Shown in pieces: positions 56,754 to 64,000 of a DNA stretch of 64,000 nt (position 1 is the stretch's first letter; every line of letters begins with the position of its first letter). The DNA comes from Roseicyclus mahoneyensis (lineage in GTDB: Bacteria; Pseudomonadota; Alphaproteobacteria; Rhodobacterales; Rhodobacteraceae): NCBI RefSeq assembly GCF_003148775.1, contig NZ_QGGW01000003.1, forward strand, positions 248,001 to 312,000, written 5' to 3'. The translations under genes were made by a program, and so were the position numbers. The notes under the pieces are model-generated. The model made no database searches, was not told the DNA's origin, and saw nothing but the letters and a program-made list of their open reading frames with translations.

Positions 56754-58352
56754 GTGAGCGAATTGAAAACAATAGACTCCGGCAACCTTCTGACCGCGGC
56801 GCAGATGCGCGCGGTCGAGCAGGCCGATATCGCCACCGGGCGGGTCACGGGGCTGCAGCTGATGGAAGCTGCGGGGCGCGGCGTCGTCGAGGCGGTGTTC
56901 GGGGAGTGGCCGGAGTTGGCGGCCGCCCCACGTCACGCTGTGGTGCTGTGCGGGCCCGGCAACAATGGCGGCGACGGGTTCGTTGTGGCGCGGCTGTTGA
57001 AGGCGTGGGGCTGGGAGGTGGAGGTCTACCTTTACGGCAATGCCGAAAAAATGCCGCCGGACGCGCAGGTGAATTACAAGCGGTGGCGAGAGATGGGGGA
57101 GGTTGGGGAACTTGACCAGCACGCGATCACGACAACGATCCATTCACGAAGTATGGACCTGCTCGTCGATGCGATCTTCGGAACAGGCCTGAAGCGCGGC
57201 GTCGACCTGCCGCTTTCCAGCTTTGGCCCTAGCCAGACGCGCGACAGCGAGGGGATGGCCTGCCAGCGGTTTCGATGCGTTGCAATAGACGTGCCCTCCG
57301 GAATTTGCAGCGATTCCGGGCGGGAACTGGGTGGCGTTGCCGGTCAGTTCTGCGCCCAACTTACGGTCACGTTTCATCGAGAAAAGCTGGGCCATCGGCT
57401 TGGACGAGGGCCGAGGGCATGCGGAAAGATCGTCACGGTCGATATCGGCCTCGACTCCAGATCTTGCAGCGAACTCGAGAGTTCGGGCGCGGTCCGGAAA
57501 GTCGGCGCGCCGGATGTCGCGGTAAAGCGTATTGGTGCCCACAAATTCTCGCACGGTCACGCCCTGATCTTGTCCGGTCCCATGGGCCGGTCCGGTGCCG
57601 CGCGCCTTGCCGCAAGGGGCGCGTTGCGGGTGGGCGCGGGGCTGGTCACGGTGGGTGCCCCGGGTTCCGCGATGCCGGAATGCGCGGCGCAACTGACGGC
57701 GATCATGCTGCAGCCCGCGGAGGATGCCGGGGCGCTGGCGACGCTGCTGGAGGACGGGCGAATCAATGCGCTGTGTCTCGGCCCGGGGTTGGGGGTGGCG
57801 CGGGCACGGGCACTGGTGCCGGTGGCCCTGACGCCGGTGACGGACAGGGCGGTCGTGCTGGATGCGGACGCGTTGACGGCCTTTGCCGGCGAGCCTGCGG
57901 CCCTTTTCGCCATGCTGCATCCGCGATGCGTGCTGACGCCGCATGGAGGTGAGTTTGCGCGACTTTTCCCTGACATCGCCGAGAAACTGGATGCTCCGGC
58001 GCAGGCAGGCCCGGCCTTTTCAAAGGTTGATGCCACACGGGAAGCCGCCGCGCGCGCAGGCTGCGTGGTGCTGTTCAAGGGACCGGACACGGTCATGGCG
58101 GATGCCTCGGGCGCCTGTTCGGTCCATTCCGCCGCCTATGAGCGGGCGACGCCATGGCTGGCCACGGCGGGGTCGGGGGACGTTCTTGCGGGCATGATCG
58201 CGGGGCTGATGGCGCAGGGGCGGCCCGCCATGAAGGCGGCCGAGGCCGCCGCATGGCTGCATGTGGAGGCCGCGCGCGCCTTCGGTCCGGGGCTGATCGC
58301 AGAGGATCTGCCCGAGATGCTGCCGCGGGTGTTCCTTGACCTCGGGCTTTAG
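56754..58352 (+). CDS. nnr: bifunctional NAD(P)HX epimerase/dehydratase
   Basis: 532 aa from GTG 56754. N-terminal YjeF_N epimerase domain (LMEAAGRGVVEAVF; VVLCGPGNNGGDGFVVARLL) and C-terminal ribokinase-like dehydratase (GPMGRSGAARLAARGALRVG; LTPHGGEFARLFP; ATAGSGDVLAGMIAG). It repairs hydrated NADH and NADPH using ATP or ADP. The stop overlaps Hint copy 5 on the other strand by three bases. Confidence 0.95.
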   Translation: MSELKTIDSGNLLTAAQMRAVEQADIATGRVTGLQLMEAAGRGVVEAVFGEWPELAAAPRHAVVLCGPGNNGGDGFVVARLLKAWGWEVEVYLYGNAEKMPPDAQVNYKRWREMGEVGELDQHAITTTIHSRSMDLLVDAIFGTGLKRGVDLPLSSFGPSQTRDSEGMACQRFRCVAIDVPSGICSDSGRELGGVAGQFCAQLTVTFHREKLGHRLGRGPRACGKIVTVDIGLDSRSCSELESSGAVRKVGAPDVAVKRIGAHKFSHGHALILSGPMGRSGAARLAARGALRVGAGLVTVGAPGSAMPECAAQLTAIMLQPAEDAGALATLLEDGRINALCLGPGLGVARARALVPVALTPVTDRAVVLDADALTAFAGEPAALFAMLHPRCVLTPHGGEFARLFPDIAEKLDAPAQAGPAFSKVDATREAAARAGCVVLFKGPDTVMADASGACSVHSAAYERATPWLATAGSGDVLAGMIAGLMAQGRPAMKAAEAAAWLHVEAARAFGPGLIAEDLPEMLPRVFLDLGL

Positions 58353-58840
58353 GCCGGGATGGTCAACCGGTCAGCCGAGGCCAGTTCGAGCCCGTCGGCA
58401 TAGAACACCTCGGGCCGGCCAAAGCGGAGCGCATAAGCCATCACCTCCGCGGGCAGTTCCGACAAGCGGATATATTCGCCATCGACCAGCTGGCCCACCG
58501 CGATACAGACCTGCGCCTGTCCGTAAAGCGCCTTGGCGCGCCAGTCGCGGATCACGATGCGCTGTCCCGCAGGCAGCCACAGATCGCGTTCTGGCCGCCC
58601 GCCCAAAGCGTTTTGCGCGATGCTGACGATGGCTGTTCCTGCCGCCAGCGTGACGCGATCGATCGCCTCGATCCGTCGTGCGCCGTGACGCGTCACCAGC
58701 CGGTCGCCGGGGTAAAGGTGGTCGACGGGCAAGGCGCCGTCGAGCGTCAGCACGCAAGTGCCGGGCGCGATTGCCATGGGTGTGCCTGCGCCCATGTCAT
58801 CCGCCCGCAGCTGTGCTGCGATGGAGATCATCTCTATCAT
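58349..58840 (-). CDS. degenerate Hint-domain protein (Hint copy 5)
   Basis: 163 aa from ATG 58840. Almost all of it is a Hint module, but the nucleophile position is alanine (A23-IAPGTCVLTLDGA) and the catalytic histidine is glutamine (LPAGQ93-RIVI). Both changes argue that it cannot self-cleave. The fold-defining motifs (LYPGDRLVTRHG, VIRDWRAKALYGQAQV, YADGLELASADRL) remain. It may be a fixed binding module or a decaying copy. Intact frame, convergent with the NAD(P)HX repair gene. Confidence 0.78.
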   Translation of the reverse strand: MIEMISIAAQLRADDMGAGTPMAIAPGTCVLTLDGALPVDHLYPGDRLVTRHGARRIEAIDRVTLAAGTAIVSIAQNALGGRPERDLWLPAGQRIVIRDWRAKALYGQAQVCIAVGQLVDGEYIRLSELPAEVMAYALRFGRPEVFYADGLELASADRLTIPA

Positions 58841-59082
58841 GTCGAAACCTGCTCGGTCGCGGACGCTTTGTGCGCCCTTTTGTTTGTGAAACGACCGTAA
58901 CGCGGCTGATTCGACCTGCACAGGAAAAATGTTATTTCGCGAATAAAGCACCCCTGAAGTGTTGCGACAAAACTTTCGGATCATGCCGGCAGCATCGTAG
59001 GCCAAGATTGACATCTGGTTAACGCCGGGTCGGTTTTCCGTCTCGCGCTTGGGGCGACCCTCTGCTAAAGCCCCGCGGTAAT

Positions 59083-59167
59083 GCGGGTGTGGCGGAACTG
59101 GTAGACGCACCAGATTTAGGTTCTGGCGCCGCAAGGCGTGGGGGTTCGAGTCCCTTCACCCGCACCA
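59083..59167 (+). tRNA. tRNA-Leu (anticodon UAG)
   Basis: Class II tRNA with encoded CCA. Acceptor GCGGGTG pairs with CACCCGC, followed by ACCA. The anticodon stem CCAGA/TCTGG encloses TTTAGGT, giving anticodon TAG; the variable arm CGCCGCAAGGCG is a stem with a loop, as in leucine tRNAs. The T-loop TTCGAGT is intact. Confidence 0.97.
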
Positions 59168-59376: not shown

Positions 59377-60345
59377 TTGTCAGTGATAGCCCTCAAGAAA
59401 CGCGAGCCGAACCACGTGAAAATCGACCACGACATCCTGAATTCGGCGGCGGCGTGGTGGGCAGGGGAGCGAATTAGCGAGCACCTGCAGGAAGAAGACC
59501 TTGCGCGGATCTGGTCCACTCCATGGCCGGAGCTGGTGCAGGAAGTGAAGAGAGCTGCATCCGACCCGGAGCTTGCGAAACCGAACGCGATGATCCCGAC
59601 CTCGCATCTCGGTGCGATGCCGCCGGAGCGGGTGCTGGCCAAGAACCTTTTCATCCTGCCACTGGCACTGCATCTTTTCAGCACCGAGACGACTGAAGTC
59701 AGACTCAAGGTCAATGTTGTCGGTCTTGAAAGGCTGGATGAGGCTTTGACGTCGTGCGGGCGTGTCTGTCTGCTTGGCGGCCATGTCGGACCGGGGCTTG
59801 CAACATCGTATGTCCTCAACCTGTTGGGTTATGCGATTTCCCACCAATCGCGGCGAAACTTCTTCGAGGGGCTCAAGCTTCCTCGATATGAGACCATCGC
59901 GCATATTCCGACAGGAGGATTTCGTTTGGCATCGCTGGCGCGCGCGATGGCCGATCTTGAATCTGGCCGCGTTCTCTTCACCGCTGCAGATGGCGTGGCA
60001 GGCACATCAGGCAGGGCTTTCAACTTCCTCGGCAAGTCCCGGCAGTTCCAGTCCGGGTTCGGTTACACCATCACGCGCTGCAAGGCCGAGGCGATTCCCG
60101 TTTACGCGCGCCTCGATAGTGACGCAAACCTCACCATCGAGTTCGGGGATCCGCTGTGCCCAATCGCGGATGAGTGGCCAGATCAAGACCGTCAGGAAGG
60201 GATTGCCCACGGGTATGTCACCGCGCTCGAGAAATACTGGCTCTTGCATGAGAGAAACGTTCCGGATCGCCAACTCAGGCTCCAAGCTTCGCGCGCCGAG
60301 TGCGAACCGGGCGCTGCGGCACACTCATTTTGCGTGCGCGGATGA
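59377..60345 (+). CDS. LpxL/HtrB-like acyltransferase-fold protein, paralogue 1
   Basis: 322 aa from TTG 59377 (GTG 59383 also possible; GGGGG lies about 11 bases upstream of TTG). No membrane helix or signal. The central region resembles the lysophospholipid acyltransferase fold: VCLLGGH136-VGPG, LESGRVLFTAADG and FLGKSRQFQSGFGYTITRCKAE-like elements shared with the next gene. The usual HX4(D/E) partner of the histidine is L141, so catalysis is doubtful or different. It opens the lower-GC cluster; it may transfer an acyl or aminoacyl group from a carrier protein. Confidence 0.75.
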   Translation: MSVIALKKREPNHVKIDHDILNSAAAWWAGERISEHLQEEDLARIWSTPWPELVQEVKRAASDPELAKPNAMIPTSHLGAMPPERVLAKNLFILPLALHLFSTETTEVRLKVNVVGLERLDEALTSCGRVCLLGGHVGPGLATSYVLNLLGYAISHQSRRNFFEGLKLPRYETIAHIPTGGFRLASLARAMADLESGRVLFTAADGVAGTSGRAFNFLGKSRQFQSGFGYTITRCKAEAIPVYARLDSDANLTIEFGDPLCPIADEWPDQDRQEGIAHGYVTALEKYWLLHERNVPDRQLRLQASRAECEPGAAAHSFCVRG

Positions 60346-61277
60346 CTCACGACGTGCCAGAAATCGAACGAATGAGCGCGCACCTTGCGCAGGTCCACGG
60401 TCTTGCGCCGGCGTGGGTCAGGGAGTTCTGGTCTTGGCCCTATCGTGATGTGATCGACTTCGTTCACAGGCTTGCGTCCTCAGCAGAGGAGCGGCAATCC
60501 CATGGATTTCCAAAGGAATACCTCACATCTTTGCCAGGCGTCGAGTTGAGCGACCGCACGAGCCCGAACGACCTCATCGTACAAAAGATCATGCGGGAAA
60601 GGCTGCTTGTTCTGCGTATGCTTTTCGAGTTTTGCTCTTCTCACCCAGAACGCATTTCGGAGGCGATCGAAATCAAGGGACTTGAGCATCTGGAGGCCGC
60701 GGCGGTATCCGGAAATCCGGTCATCCTCGCAACGACACATGTGGGCATTGGTCAAATTGGCCCGCACATCCTTGCGCAGTTCGGCTTTCCCATCACAGTG
60801 CTGGGCGGAGGGCTTCCCACGCGCCTTCTTGGCTTGCCGGGGCACGAAAAGCTGCAATTGCTCCGGCCGAAAGACCAAGGCCCGCTCGTGGTTGCCAAGG
60901 GAATGGAAGCGCTCAAGGCCGGTCGGTTCCTTGTGATGGCCGCCGATGGACGGCAGGGCCGGGCAGGGGATGCGCGGCGTTTCCTCGGGAAAATACGGAT
61001 CTTCAAGAGTGGCTTGAATTACTGTGCGACAAGGGCCCAGGCACGGGTGATCCCTTGGCAAGCAACCGTGAACTCCGTCGGGAGCCCCACCTTGGAGGTC
61101 TTTCCCGAGATCGCCCCGATGGATGCCGGGTGTTCAGATGATGAGAGAGCCGAGGCAATCACGATGAAGTACAGGGATCTACTGGAGTGGACTTGGATCA
61201 ATCACTTCGGCAACGTCAGCGACGGGGACGTGCAAGAGTATCTGGCGCTGCCTGACGCGCCGCCACAGGTCCGGTGA
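60342..61277 (+). CDS. LpxL/HtrB-like acyltransferase-fold protein, paralogue 2
   Basis: 311 aa, starting inside the last codons of paralogue 1 (ATGA). The core aligns with it: TTH133-VGIG, LKAGRFLVMAADGRQG, FLGKIRIFKSGLNYCATRA. The acid of HX4(D/E) is Q138, again missing. The C-terminal half has the VIPWQATV–LEVFPEI beta-strand pair of this fold. A tandem duplication kept together suggests that the two work as a pair. Followed by the dehydrogenase-like gene with a TGATG overlap. Confidence 0.75.
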   Translation: MTHDVPEIERMSAHLAQVHGLAPAWVREFWSWPYRDVIDFVHRLASSAEERQSHGFPKEYLTSLPGVELSDRTSPNDLIVQKIMRERLLVLRMLFEFCSSHPERISEAIEIKGLEHLEAAAVSGNPVILATTHVGIGQIGPHILAQFGFPITVLGGGLPTRLLGLPGHEKLQLLRPKDQGPLVVAKGMEALKAGRFLVMAADGRQGRAGDARRFLGKIRIFKSGLNYCATRAQARVIPWQATVNSVGSPTLEVFPEIAPMDAGCSDDERAEAITMKYRDLLEWTWINHFGNVSDGDVQEYLALPDAPPQVR

Positions 61278-62416
61278 TGGACTTCGCGTATTCCCCAACA
61301 CAGCTCGAGCTGCGTATGAAGGCCGCCCGGGATGCTGGCTGCTTTCGCGTCGAAGCCGGAGCTTTCGCCAAATCGGCAGGCTGGCAGGCCGCCGCCAAGG
61401 AAGGGTGGATGGGGCTGTGCCTCTCTCGGCCTGCCGGGGCCGGGCTGAGTGCGCTGGATACCGTAACGGCCTTCGAGGCGCTGGGTGAAGCGGGCGCGTC
61501 CCGCGGCGCAGTTTTCGCCACCGGCGCGCATCTTTTCGGAGCCGCTACCGCGATGTCTCGGTTCGGGAGTGCCGACGAGGTTCAAGACCTGCTGGACAAG
61601 CTTGCAGCCGGGCAAGCGGTCGGGGCGCTCGCGTTGACCGAGCCGTCCGGCGGATCGACGCTGAGCGCTATGGAAACGGTGATCCGCGACCTTGGGCGCG
61701 GCGAACTGTCTCTCGCTGGTGCGAAAACCTACGTCACCAATGCCACACAGGCGGACGTGTTGCTGGTGCTTGCGCGTGAGGACGGGGCCCCGCCCCCCAT
61801 GAACCTCACGGTGCTCTTGGTTCCGGCCGACACGTCCGGCGTTACCATCGAGCCGCTGGCAGGCGGCCGGGGTCTTGCCGGGGCCGATATGGGCCGCGTG
61901 CGGTTTGATGGATGCGTCCTTCCGGAGTGTGCGGTTCTAGGTCGGCGGCGGGCAGGGTTGGCGGTCTTCATGGCGATGATGCAGTGGGAGAGAAGCTGTA
62001 TCCTTGCGGGGAACCTTGGCGCTCTTGAAAGGGATTTCCGCGCTGTCTGCGCGCATCTCGAGGCGCGCCGCGATGCCAATGGGTCCCTCACCGCGCATCA
62101 GGCCGTGTGTCATCCGCTCGCTGATGTTCAGGCGCGCATCGAAGCCGCTAGGCTTATTCTTTATCGCGGAGCGTGGTCACTTGATCAGGGAAAAGACGCG
62201 GCGCATTGGCCCTCGATTTCGAAACTGACGCTGGCCGAAACTCTCGTGGAATGCCATGTGATCCTTCGGCAGCTGATGGCGGGCGCGGGGTGGTCCAACC
62301 AAGCGGGGATTGCTGATGCTTTGGACGATGCGCTGGCCGTGGCTGCGGCGTCAGGGACATCTGAAATCCAGAGAACCCTGATCGCCACGCGTCTTCATCA
62401 AAGCGGGCAGCGATGA
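61277..62416 (+). CDS. acyl-CoA dehydrogenase-like flavoprotein, candidate aminoacyl (prolyl)-carrier-protein dehydrogenase
   Basis: 379 aa from ATG 61277. FAD-binding acyl-CoA-dehydrogenase fold: LTEPSGGS near 121–127, then FDGCVLPECAVLG, and the C-terminal SGTSEIQRTLIATRL. In classical enzymes a glutamate stands before GT as catalytic base; here it is serine. Segments such as LILYRGAWSLDQGKDA and SKLTLAE recall prolyl-carrier-protein dehydrogenases (PigA, RedW, PltE) as I remember them. With the adjacent adenylation and carrier genes it could oxidise a prolyl thioester to pyrrole. Confidence 0.75.
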   Translation: MDFAYSPTQLELRMKAARDAGCFRVEAGAFAKSAGWQAAAKEGWMGLCLSRPAGAGLSALDTVTAFEALGEAGASRGAVFATGAHLFGAATAMSRFGSADEVQDLLDKLAAGQAVGALALTEPSGGSTLSAMETVIRDLGRGELSLAGAKTYVTNATQADVLLVLAREDGAPPPMNLTVLLVPADTSGVTIEPLAGGRGLAGADMGRVRFDGCVLPECAVLGRRRAGLAVFMAMMQWERSCILAGNLGALERDFRAVCAHLEARRDANGSLTAHQAVCHPLADVQARIEAARLILYRGAWSLDQGKDAAHWPSISKLTLAETLVECHVILRQLMAGAGWSNQAGIADALDDALAVAAASGTSEIQRTLIATRLHQSGQR

Positions 62417-63861
62417 TCGTCTCGTTTCTTGCCCAGTCCACCAATCCACACCGGCTTGCGCTCAGCGATGAAACAGAACGGCTTACATGGGCCGACATGC
62501 ACGCCCGCATTGCAGCCTTTGCGGACCATTTCCGTGCATCAGGTGTCAAGGCAGGCGACCCGGTCCTCATCACTTTGCCGAAGGGCTGCGACGCGGTCTG
62601 TGCTCTTCTCGCGGCCTTGGCCATAGGCGCGATCGCTGTACCGCTGGACTACCGAACCCCCGACCGGCGCAAGGCCAGCGTGATCGAACGGATGGCGCCT
62701 CGCCTTGAAGTCACGCAGGCAATCGCAGACGCTGTGCGCGCGGGCGCACCTGACGCTGCATCCTTCCAGCCCACTGCGATAGAGCCTGGGCATCCGGCGC
62801 TCGTGCTCATGTCCTCTGGCACGACAGGGACGCCCAAGGCCATCACGATCAGCCACGGCAACCTGTCAGCCTTTGTGACTTGGGCCACCGAGGCCTTCTC
62901 GCTTGGCAGCAGTGATCACATACTCTCCGTCGCACCGCTTCATTTCGATCTCGCAACCTTCGATATCTTCGCGGGGCTCGGCGCGGGGGCCCATGTGCAC
63001 CTGCTTTCCGAGATCGAGGCGAGCTTTCCCGCGAAGGTGGCTACAGTATCCCGCCGCGAGGGGGCGACACTGATTTACGCGGTTCCGACCGTCTATGCGA
63101 TGATTGCGCGTCTGCACGAGACGGCAATGCCGGCGTTTCGCTGGGTTCTCTTCGCAGGTGAGGTGATGAGCGCGCCAACGTTGCAGGCGCTGCGACGCTT
63201 TGCACCAAACGCGCGTCTGGCCAATCTCTACGGCCCCTCAGAGACGAATGTGGTGACTTGGCATGAGGTCACCGAAGCGGACACTTCGCTGGTGCCCATA
63301 GGTCGGCCCTGTAGCGGTGCGCGTGTCTGGATTGCCGATGCCGAAGGGCACTCGGTTCCCGTTGGTGAAGAAGGCGAGATCTGCGTCGAAGGACCGTCGG
63401 TCTTCCTGGGCTACTGGGGTGATCAGGACCGGACGCTCGGGACCCGACTGGACGGCCGGGCGACGACCTACCGAACTGGGGACTACGGTTGGCAAGACGC
63501 CAGCGATATCCTCCACCTGTCGGGGAGGCGTGACCGACAGATCAAGGTCCGCGGTATCCTCGTCAGCCTCGACGAAATAGAGGCCGTCGCCTCGCAGTCA
63601 CATCTGGTACAAGCCTGTGCAGTCGTTCAATACAGCTCCGGTCTGATTGACACGAATCTGCACTTGTTCATTGTGGTGGATGACCGAACCGTGGATGCCC
63701 GCAAGGAGGTAAGGGACTGGCTTTGCGGTCGCTTGCCACGGGTGTGTGTGCCGGGTCGCATTACTGTGGTTGAGGCGCTTCCCAGAACCTTGAACGGCAA
63801 AATTGACCGGCAAGCCCTCGACTCGAAATCGAAGGAGATACAGCGTGGACACTGGCTTTGA
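62413..63861 (+). CDS. stand-alone adenylation enzyme, candidate L-prolyl-AMP ligase
   Basis: 482 aa, the size of free-standing A-domains. Core motifs: A3 MSSGTTGTPK (133–142), A5 NLYGPSETN, A7 YRTGDYG, A8 SGRRDRQIKVRG, A10 NGKIDR. Aligned to GrsA, the specificity residues are D179, L180, F183, Y222, L246, A248, L272, V280, V281 plus the A10 lysine: D-L-F-Y-L-A-L-V-V-K. The proline code of PltF/RedM-type enzymes, as I recall it, is DLLYLALVCK, a match at eight of ten. It would load L-proline onto the next-encoded carrier. Overlaps both neighbours. Confidence 0.88.
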   Translation: MIVSFLAQSTNPHRLALSDETERLTWADMHARIAAFADHFRASGVKAGDPVLITLPKGCDAVCALLAALAIGAIAVPLDYRTPDRRKASVIERMAPRLEVTQAIADAVRAGAPDAASFQPTAIEPGHPALVLMSSGTTGTPKAITISHGNLSAFVTWATEAFSLGSSDHILSVAPLHFDLATFDIFAGLGAGAHVHLLSEIEASFPAKVATVSRREGATLIYAVPTVYAMIARLHETAMPAFRWVLFAGEVMSAPTLQALRRFAPNARLANLYGPSETNVVTWHEVTEADTSLVPIGRPCSGARVWIADAEGHSVPVGEEGEICVEGPSVFLGYWGDQDRTLGTRLDGRATTYRTGDYGWQDASDILHLSGRRDRQIKVRGILVSLDEIEAVASQSHLVQACAVVQYSSGLIDTNLHLFIVVDDRTVDARKEVRDWLCGRLPRVCVPGRITVVEALPRTLNGKIDRQALDSKSKEIQRGHWL

Positions 63862-64000
63862 CCAACCGGATCGCGTGCTCCATGGAATTTTGGGCTGGAT
63901 CATGGACAAGACCGGAAGTTCGCCAGAGGATATCCAACCCGATACCGCGCTTTTGGACATTCAGCTTCTGGATTCGCTGCAACTCATGGACCTCGTCTTC
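63845..64000 (+). CDS. acyl/peptidyl carrier protein, 5' part (cut by window end)
   Basis: 52 codons from GTG 63845 to the window edge, overlapping the adenylation gene by 17 bases. The phosphopantetheine serine is S44 in LLDSLQLMDLVF; the preceding TALLDIQ matches the conserved carrier-protein pattern (TPLLE-like in prolyl carrier proteins). It would hold the prolyl or pyrrolyl thioester made by the two preceding enzymes. The C-terminal half and downstream genes are outside the window. Confidence 0.85.
   Translation, partial: MDTGFDQPDRVLHGILGWIMDKTGSSPEDIQPDTALLDIQLLDSLQLMDLVF

Follow-up and report, generated by a model that had tools for sequence, protein, structure and literature searches.

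A tRNA-Leu island in Roseicyclus mahoneyensis carries a predicted Bmp2-type halopyrrole operon with LpxL-like acyltransferases and no thioesterase

Introduction

How does a pyrrole built on a carrier protein leave that carrier if the operon encoding the pathway has no thioesterase? This question is raised by a locus at the right end of a 64,000-nucleotide stretch of the Roseicyclus mahoneyensis genome (contig NZ_QGGW01000003.1, here G000:C3:248001-312000; genome of 4.03 Mb in 32 contigs), which we refer to as the window. An initial annotation, made from the sequence of the window, had read three genes there as a cassette converting L-proline into a carrier-bound pyrrole. The window end cuts the locus at 64000, and we extended it to the right (L013, C3:306001-326000, and L014), with extended coordinates given as the L013 position plus 58000. 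Here, we describe an operon of nine genes which, judged from its protein sequences, very probably makes a halopyrrolyl-carrier thioester from proline. The novelty is that this Bmp2-type halopyrrole operon lacks a thioesterase, includes genes for LpxL-like acyltransferases and lies on a tRNA-Leu island.

The best point of reference is the marine bmp pathway, in which loading, oxidation and halogenation on the carrier are established (PMC5577590) and release involves hydrolytic offloading by a thioesterase as well as decarboxylation, as outlined in two reviews (PMC5577590, PMC8407142). Its product, tetrabromopyrrole, triggers coral metamorphosis (PMC10509201) and is termed antimicrobial in a paper title (PMC7730127).

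Results

A nine-gene operon crosses the end of the window

The operon comprises nine genes, all on the + strand, between 59377 and 69812 (extended coordinates), in the order AT1 and AT2 (two LpxL-like acyltransferases), dehydrogenase, proline ligase, carrier, halogenase, methyltransferase, sulfotransferase-like protein and sulfotransferase-GT4 fusion (Table 1). Seven of the eight gene junctions overlap and the eighth is a gap of 14 bases, so the nine genes are probably a single transcript; counts of sigma-70-type promoters and of terminators were not above those in shuffled sequence (2 versus 2.4, and 8 versus 10.3). The dehydrogenase, ligase and carrier genes follow one another in overlapping frames, as initially annotated, with overlaps of 4 and 17 bases respectively. 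The acyltransferase genes lie directly 5' of the dehydrogenase gene, and the halogenase gene directly 3' of the carrier gene.

Pfam searches of the nine proteins at E 0.001 returned Acyl-CoA_dh domains, AMP-binding, PP-binding, Trp_halogenase, Methyltransf_25, Sulfotransfer_3 together with glycosyltransferase group 1, and Lip_A_acyltrans (in AT2); AT1 and the protein at 65980 had no match. The same searches found no thioesterase, ketosynthase, condensation family, alpha/beta hydrolase or polyketide or prodiginine assembly gene among the nine proteins, thioesterases and ketosynthases having been searched for in the operon and not in the rest of the genome. Past 64000, where the initial annotation had proposed to look for ketosynthase, thioesterase or halogenase genes, the operon thus holds the last of these and neither of the others, and the expectation that the neighbours would differ from those of prodigiosin or pyoluteorin clusters held.

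Ligase, dehydrogenase and carrier form a predicted proline-to-pyrrole cassette

The nine pocket residues of the ligase, with positions set by motif and checked by alignment, read D-L-F-Y-L-A-L-V-V, followed by K517, in agreement with the initial annotation. The code that it had given for pyrrole-type adenylation domains, DLLYLALVCK, is that of PltF (PDB 6o6e), which agrees with the operon ligase at 8 of 10 positions. Other putative proline ligases used for comparison read DLFYLALVCK (L084 and L087), DLLYNALVCK (L083) and DLLYCAFVCK (the Bmp4-like ligase of L022), and no comparable proline code was present in 11 other AMP-binding proteins of the same genome (11 of its 17 other matches were aligned). 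In an 18-row tree that included these 11 proteins, which were the matches returned as loci, and left out RedM and PigI, six putative proline ligases including PltF and the operon ligase formed one side of a branch with support 87/80; together with LgrA A1, the proline ligases formed a 100/100 set separate from the 11 other proteins. The operon ligase is 36% identical to the L022 ligase and 35% identical to PltF. NCBIfam matches were taken from the best 25 of 106 for the ligase and the best 25 of 80 for the halogenase.

The best PDB matches of the dehydrogenase are 6cxt_B (181 bits), 5zw0 (152), 6af6 (150) and 4irn (143), followed by the isovaleryl-CoA dehydrogenase 4kto (123). By PDB name, 5zw0 and 4irn are prolyl-carrier dehydrogenases; 6cxt, whose chains are listed as a butyryl-CoA dehydrogenase and an alpha/beta hydrolase fold protein, we take to be Bmp3 with the Bmp1 carrier bound. 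We dropped the family score as sole judge of this protein, since ordinary enzymes score higher on the PigA model; because neither that score nor identity separates the dehydrogenase from ordinary enzymes, a tree was needed. The tree has 37 rows, including 24 loci from a PigA-model search (matches in 198 of 398 genomes) and seven other dehydrogenases of the same genome; a copy of the window protein itself (own_L077) was dropped before counting. In it, the dehydrogenase falls in a seven-row clade with 6cxt, 5zw0, 4irn, L022, L049 and L070 (support 100/100), and within this prolyl-carrier clade in a four-row set (95/85) containing the Bmp3-like pair. Forced grouping with 24 ordinary isovaleryl-type rows cost 25 log units and was rejected (approximately unbiased (AU) test, p 0.0031); the phylogeny that the initial annotation had proposed as a check thus places the protein away from ordinary acyl-CoA dehydrogenases. 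Glu239 aligns with the Glu that is replaced by Ala in 6af6. The protein lies under both curated NCBIfam cut-offs and was rejected as a PigA or RedW equivalog.

The carrier scores 28.8 bits on PF00550 (cut-off 20.8), and its attachment serine, in LLDSL, lies inside the window although the gene runs past the window end. The protein ends right after the carrier domain, with no fused thioesterase. Its best PDB matches, CcbZ, the 6cxt_A carrier, a putative peptidyl carrier and PigG, are all weak (about 30 bits or less).

The dehydrogenase clade and the grouping of the ligase with PltF-type proline ligases support the initial reading of the locus as a proline-to-pyrrolyl-carrier cassette, as far as sequence can indicate. 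The relatives named in that reading, Red, Plt and Pig, do share the same three activities; the closest structurally solved relatives are instead from the marine bromopyrrole pathway, namely Bmp3 and Bmp2.

The halogenase belongs to the Bmp2 clade

The best PDB match of the halogenase is Bmp2 (5bva; 282 bits, 7.5e-83, 41% identity), followed by the triple mutant of the same protein (5bul, 279 bits) and then 8zop (159 bits). In a tree of 13 rows, from which the triple mutant was dropped before counting and in which PltA was not included, the operon halogenase falls in a five-row Bmp2 clade (support 100/100), with Mpy16 outside. The motifs WSWHIP and FLDPIFSFG, whose meaning is discussed in PMC8407142, are kept. 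The pocket residues are F316/L320/V360, compared with Y/F/A in Bmp2 and the L022 protein, S/V/W in Mpy16 and F/F/I in L084 and L087. Since the F/L/V pocket is closer to that of the tetrabrominase Bmp2 than to that of the dihalogenase Mpy16, more than one halogen is probably added to the ring, the number and kind of halogen being unreadable from sequence. The published Bmp2 triple mutant is altered at these three positions (Y302S/F306V/A345W; PMC5577590, PMC8407142), and the two reviews differ on its outcome, one giving monohalogenation and the other no further than dihalogenation. A PltA/Mpy16-type dihalogenase was considered and rejected, as the protein has no S/V/W pocket and is not in the Mpy16 clade (PltA not being in the tree).

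Acyltransferases and the remaining operon proteins

AT1 and AT2 share 30% identity, and both align across the H-x4 and FLGK regions with L088, an LpxL-like protein of the same genome. AT2 scores 44.9 bits on PF03279 (Lip_A_acyltrans; cut-off 22.3), and scores on the NCBIfam LpxM/lipid A models are 19-20 bits against cut-offs of 336-337. A Foldseek search with a low-confidence AlphaFold model of AT2 gave 14 PDB matches at E <=0.001, consisting of PatA (12) and LpxM (2) with template modelling (TM) scores of 0.34-0.45; these model-based matches support superfamily membership and nothing finer. PatA and LpxM acylate sugars of envelope lipids.

In the last protein of the operon, the sulfotransferase-GT4 fusion, matches to TIGR04047 and to XrtA-type and NoeE models are all under their cut-offs. 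A role of the operon in anti-phage defence was rejected: the only PADLOC match, of the methyltransferase to mads_2 (E 1.4e-17), was taken as a generic methyltransferase match.

The operon lies on an island at a tRNA-Leu gene

The last 12 bases of the tRNA-Leu gene upstream of the operon, TCACCCGCACCA (59156-59167), recur 10,794 bases downstream at 69950-69961 (L013:11950-11961), just before a BHMT-like gene. L013 contains two matches to TCACCCGCACCA against 0.01 expected, and the window one, at the tRNA. This repeat is one of five two-copy repeat families and is marked out by its place at the tRNA end. The spacing from nnrD to the BHMT-like gene is 11.7 kb here versus 0.9-1.6 kb in 5 of 12 other genus genomes (G296, G297, G298, G299 and G302); in the remaining seven, nnrD or the BHMT-like gene is missing, or they are on different contigs. 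Two congeners examined (G297 and G298) have the same tRNA-Leu and Hint genes between nnrD and the BHMT-like gene, with the site empty. Because congeners carry the tRNA-Leu with an empty site, and the repeat marks the far edge, about 10.8 kb (59168-69961) is inserted at the tRNA 3' end, and the operon is horizontally acquired.

The island genes have a GC content of 54-65% and third-position GC (GC3) of 66-72%, versus 64.8% GC for window positions 1-54000 and a GC3 of 77-87% for three neighbouring genes. No integrase is encoded among the nine island proteins, and the island ends outside the nine genes, of 209 and 149 bases, are too short for an integrase gene. Next to the tRNA-Leu gene lies a gene for a Hint_2-domain protein (58349-59134, - strand), which both congeners examined have at the equivalent position. 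By eye, a region (CFTPGTRI...PAGERPIE) of a large protein encoded at L014:9595-11727 (- strand) resembles this protein.

Table 1 Features of the tRNA-Leu island and its operon; positions past 64000 are in extended coordinates.
Feature	Position	Strand	Remarks
tRNA-Leu gene, attL-like left island edge	59083-59167	+	ARAGORN
AT1, LpxL-like acyltransferase, diverged	59377-60345	+	motif HVGPGL; start TTG 59377, GTG 59383 or GTG 59416
AT2, LpxL-like acyltransferase	60342-61277	+	motif HVGIGQ; ATG 60342 overlaps AT1 stop; GTG 60300 possible, the start used in searches
Putative prolyl-carrier dehydrogenase	61274/61277-62416	+	GTG 61274 or ATG 61277; catalytic-type Glu239 in MQWER
Putative stand-alone L-proline adenylation enzyme	62413-63861	+	pocket code DLFYLALVVK
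Carrier, 87 residues	63845-64108 (window part 63845-64000)	+	GTG start after AAGGAG; Ser44 in LLDSLQLM
Halogenase	64099-65376	+	Trp_halogenase, Pfam
Methyltransferase	65363-65965	+	Methyltransf_25, Pfam
Sulfotransferase-like protein	65980-67083	+	P-loop-like motif GASKTATTS
Sulfotransferase-GT4 fusion	about 67080-69812	+	Sulfotransfer_3 and glycosyltransferase group 1, Pfam

Distribution of halogenase and acyltransferase relatives

Halogenase matches at 1e-20 are present in 5 of 295 family genomes, the R. mahoneyensis genome included. G008 has a nearly full-length match (41%, 3.0e-85). The matches in the three further genomes lie outside the Bmp2 clade and are weaker or incomplete, at 32-43% over 167-338 residues. 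The G008 locus, in a Rhodobacteraceae metagenome-assembled genome (L022; G008:C300, 4363-9416, = JAHQVS010000311.1), is a Bmp1-4-like set with a carrier fused to an alpha/beta hydrolase, a halogenase with the Y/F/A pocket, a dehydrogenase and a ligase. A scan of genome contigs with the halogenase alignment recovered three loci among 132 pattern matches, namely the G008 contig and two weak ones, and 88 plasmid records had a halogenase match, all under 60% identity.

Matches to AT2 at E 1e-8 were confined to the R. mahoneyensis genome (1 of 13 genus and 1 of 390 order genomes), as were those to an acyltransferase profile (A1) at E 1e-10 (1 of 385 class genomes). The plasmid collection gave no acyltransferase match, and an A1 scan of genome contigs no relative among 65 pattern matches, a result of little weight given the poor peptide patterns. 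The phylum sample of 398 genomes yielded four with matches at E 1e-6, namely this genome and three with weak matches, around which (L097-L100, 10-18 kb each) no dehydrogenase, carrier or halogenase match was found. In one of these stretches (L099; G706:C16, 6648-9102), an AMP-ligase 29% identical to that of the window lies directly before an LpxL-like gene (PF03279, 107 bits), with no dehydrogenase match.

Other proline cassettes came to light in the same searches. Two genomes from another family of the same phylum (L084, G655:C15:52001-68000, and L087, G815:C75:1-20000) encode, by Pfam, a proline ligase, a prolyl dehydrogenase and a Bmp2-clade halogenase 33-35% identical to that of the operon; neighbouring genes encode two ketosynthase-type proteins, a short-chain reductase, a second flavin halogenase-like protein and, before the ligase, a protein of 430-440 residues. 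These loci are perhaps halopyrrole-capped polyene clusters, and four more genomes of that family (G631, G704, G730 and G798) had one match each in the PigA-model search. An alphaproteobacterial locus (L083; G806:C1, 5806-9190) has a carrier-like frame (tblastn match to the window carrier, no Pfam match), a proline ligase and a PigA-like dehydrogenase at 450 bits, under the cut-off of 500, with no halogenase match in 18 kb.

Discussion

We propose the following pathway. The ligase would adenylate L-proline and load it onto the stand-alone carrier, the dehydrogenase would oxidise the carrier-bound prolyl group to pyrrolyl, and the Bmp2-clade flavin halogenase would halogenate the carrier-bound ring, probably more than once; family membership and catalytic residues speak for these steps. 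One or both LpxL-like acyltransferases would transfer the halopyrrolyl group from the carrier to an acceptor hydroxyl (or amine), and the methyltransferase, the sulfotransferase-like proteins and the glycosyltransferase would build or trim this acceptor, for which a sugar-containing surface molecule or a glycolipid is the likeliest candidate. We infer the last two steps from gene content and gene order: because the operon has no thioesterase and opens with two acyltransferase genes, direct acyl transfer from the carrier is the simplest reading, and the glycosyltransferase, sulfotransferases and methyltransferase in the same operon suggest a sugar-bearing acceptor.

The locus is a variant of a bmp-type cassette in which acyl transfer most likely takes the place of thioesterase release. 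We put the chance that the acquired operon both produces a halogenated pyrrole-2-carboxyl thioester and employs it as the donor in acyl transfer at a little short of even, and our assignments of the acceptor and of the acyltransferases to halopyrrolyl transfer are tentative. The fullest version, in which the LpxL-like enzymes attach halopyrrole-2-carboxyl from the carrier to a sulfated, methylated surface glycan or glycolipid and a mobile operon yields a halopyrrole-decorated envelope molecule, is on balance doubtful.

Several observations weigh against this pathway. The dehydrogenase reaches 242.8 bits on PigA (cut-off 500) and 211.8 on RedW (cut-off 650), and is outscored on PigA by ordinary isovaleryl-type enzymes, which score up to 300.6 (265.6 for that of the same genome); identity is uninformative, at 35% to L022, 33% to 6cxt, 31% to the ordinary 4kto and 30% to 5zw0. 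A tree keeping the other six rows of its clade together is not rejected (AU p 0.206). The protein has an odd composition and, at 3.08, a very long terminal branch, so it may be decaying or have switched to another substrate. The six-ligase clade, with only 87/80, is not starred. AT1 scores 15.1 bits on PF03279 in a search at E 10, under the cut-off, and the AlphaFold model of AT2, built from a two-sequence alignment, is poor (mean predicted local distance difference test (pLDDT) 54.7, predicted TM score (pTM) 0.58). After H-x4, AT2 has Gln and AT1 Leu in place of an acidic D/E. We rejected this as proof of new chemistry, since L088 also has Gln there (HFGNYQ); L089, another LpxL-like protein of the genome, has Asp (HFGQWD). 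The acyltransferases could use ordinary fatty acyl groups on acyl carrier protein instead of a halopyrrolyl donor, and the genus, order, class and phylum samples and the contig scan held no second case of such acyltransferases beside a pyrrole cassette. Finally, the protein at 65980 has no Pfam match even at E 10, and its putative sulfotransferase role is suggested by the P-loop-like motif alone.

Among other readings, we consider it unlikely that the pathway ends in a free halopyrrole such as tetrabromopyrrole, let go by decarboxylative halogenation or by a thioesterase that is unlinked or has a housekeeping role, with the acyltransferases serving a separate lipid or sugar step. This reading would fit a halogenase in the Bmp2 clade, a dehydrogenase nearest the Bmp3 pair and the existence within the family of a Bmp1-4-like set with a carrier-hydrolase fusion (L022); however, bmp release is by hydrolytic, thioesterase-mediated offloading (PMC5577590, PMC8407142), and here Pfam finds neither a thioesterase nor an alpha/beta hydrolase among the nine proteins, the carrier stops after its carrier domain and the pocket is F/L/V rather than Y/F/A.

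We consider it improbable that the cassette primes a ketosynthase or a non-ribosomal peptide synthetase (NRPS) whose gene lies outside the island, in the manner of prodiginines, pyoluteorin and marinopyrrole. Pyrrolyl-carriers commonly prime assembly of this kind, further long AMP-binding open frames (1175 and 955 residues) are present in the genome, and the cassette with a Bmp2-clade halogenase in L084 and L087 adjoins ketosynthase genes, but Pfam detects neither a ketosynthase nor a condensation domain among the island proteins, and the transfer of the island as a unit suggests that the acceptor chemistry is on board. Equally improbable is that the operon, as an acquired fragment, is in decay or acts on a different substrate and yields no halopyrrole: despite the long dehydrogenase branch, a GC3 unlike the backbone, AT2 in 1 of 13 genus genomes and the lack of an integrase on the element, each of the nine reading frames is open and closely coupled to the next, and the checked catalytic residues of ligase, dehydrogenase, carrier and halogenase are kept.

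If LpxL-like enzymes do take a halopyrrolyl donor, natural-product biosynthesis would become a role of an enzyme family known for transferring fatty acyl groups to lipid A, and mass spectrometry could be used to search for halopyrrole esters on surface molecules. A cassette without a thioesterase, and with a pocket unlike known tetra- and dihalogenase pockets, also offers a direct test of the coupling between halogen count and release. Among the matches listed in our literature search, which covered titles and openings, with subscription journals mostly outside its scope, none linked bmp genes to Rhodobacteraceae or a pyrrole cassette to an LpxL-like enzyme. The available part of a review on marine pyrroles has a section on glycosylated pyrroles and names no halopyrrole glycolipid (PMC8471394).

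The operon is most readily compared with bmp1-4 of Pseudoalteromonas, which likewise bring together a proline ligase, a flavin dehydrogenase, a carrier and a Bmp2-clade halogenase, and which supply its nearest PDB relatives (6cxt, presumably Bmp3, 33%; 5bva, Bmp2, 41%). In bmp1-4, however, the carrier is fused to a thioesterase (Bmp1) and the pocket is Y302/F306/A345, whereas the operon has an unfused carrier and a different pocket, and adds two LpxL-like acyltransferases, a methyltransferase, sulfotransferase-like proteins and a glycosyltransferase. We rejected a tetrabromopyrrole system, as both the Bmp2 pocket and the carrier-thioesterase fusion are absent. RedM/RedW/RedO, PigI/PigA/PigG and PltF/PltE/PltL have the same three activities as the operon, the ligase code differing from that of PltF at 2 of 10 positions; they are set apart by overall identity (35% for the ligase to PltF, 30% for the dehydrogenase to 5zw0), by dehydrogenase scores under the PigA and RedW cut-offs and by the polyketide or prodiginine genes that the operon lacks.

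With LpxL/LpxM and mycobacterial PatA, the likeness lies in the AT2 score over the Lip_A_acyltrans cut-off and in the fold matches of its low-confidence model, which are to PatA and LpxM only; the two acyltransferases differ from LpxL/LpxM in the replaced acidic catalytic residue (Gln in AT2, Leu in AT1), in scores of 20 bits versus 337, and in their place beside a pyrrole cassette. For the proposed transfer itself, the parallel is with the CloN and CouN pyrrole transfer of clorobiocin and coumermycin. In coumermycin biosynthesis, CouN transfers a pyrrole to a sugar hydroxyl. CloN7 of the clorobiocin pathway carries out the same kind of reaction, moving pyrrole-2-carboxyl from its carrier to a deoxysugar hydroxyl (PMC11218499). 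The operon resembles these systems in its proposed logic, an acyltransferase acting from carrier to sugar hydroxyl; its acyltransferases are LpxL-like, and its halogenase is encoded in the same operon.

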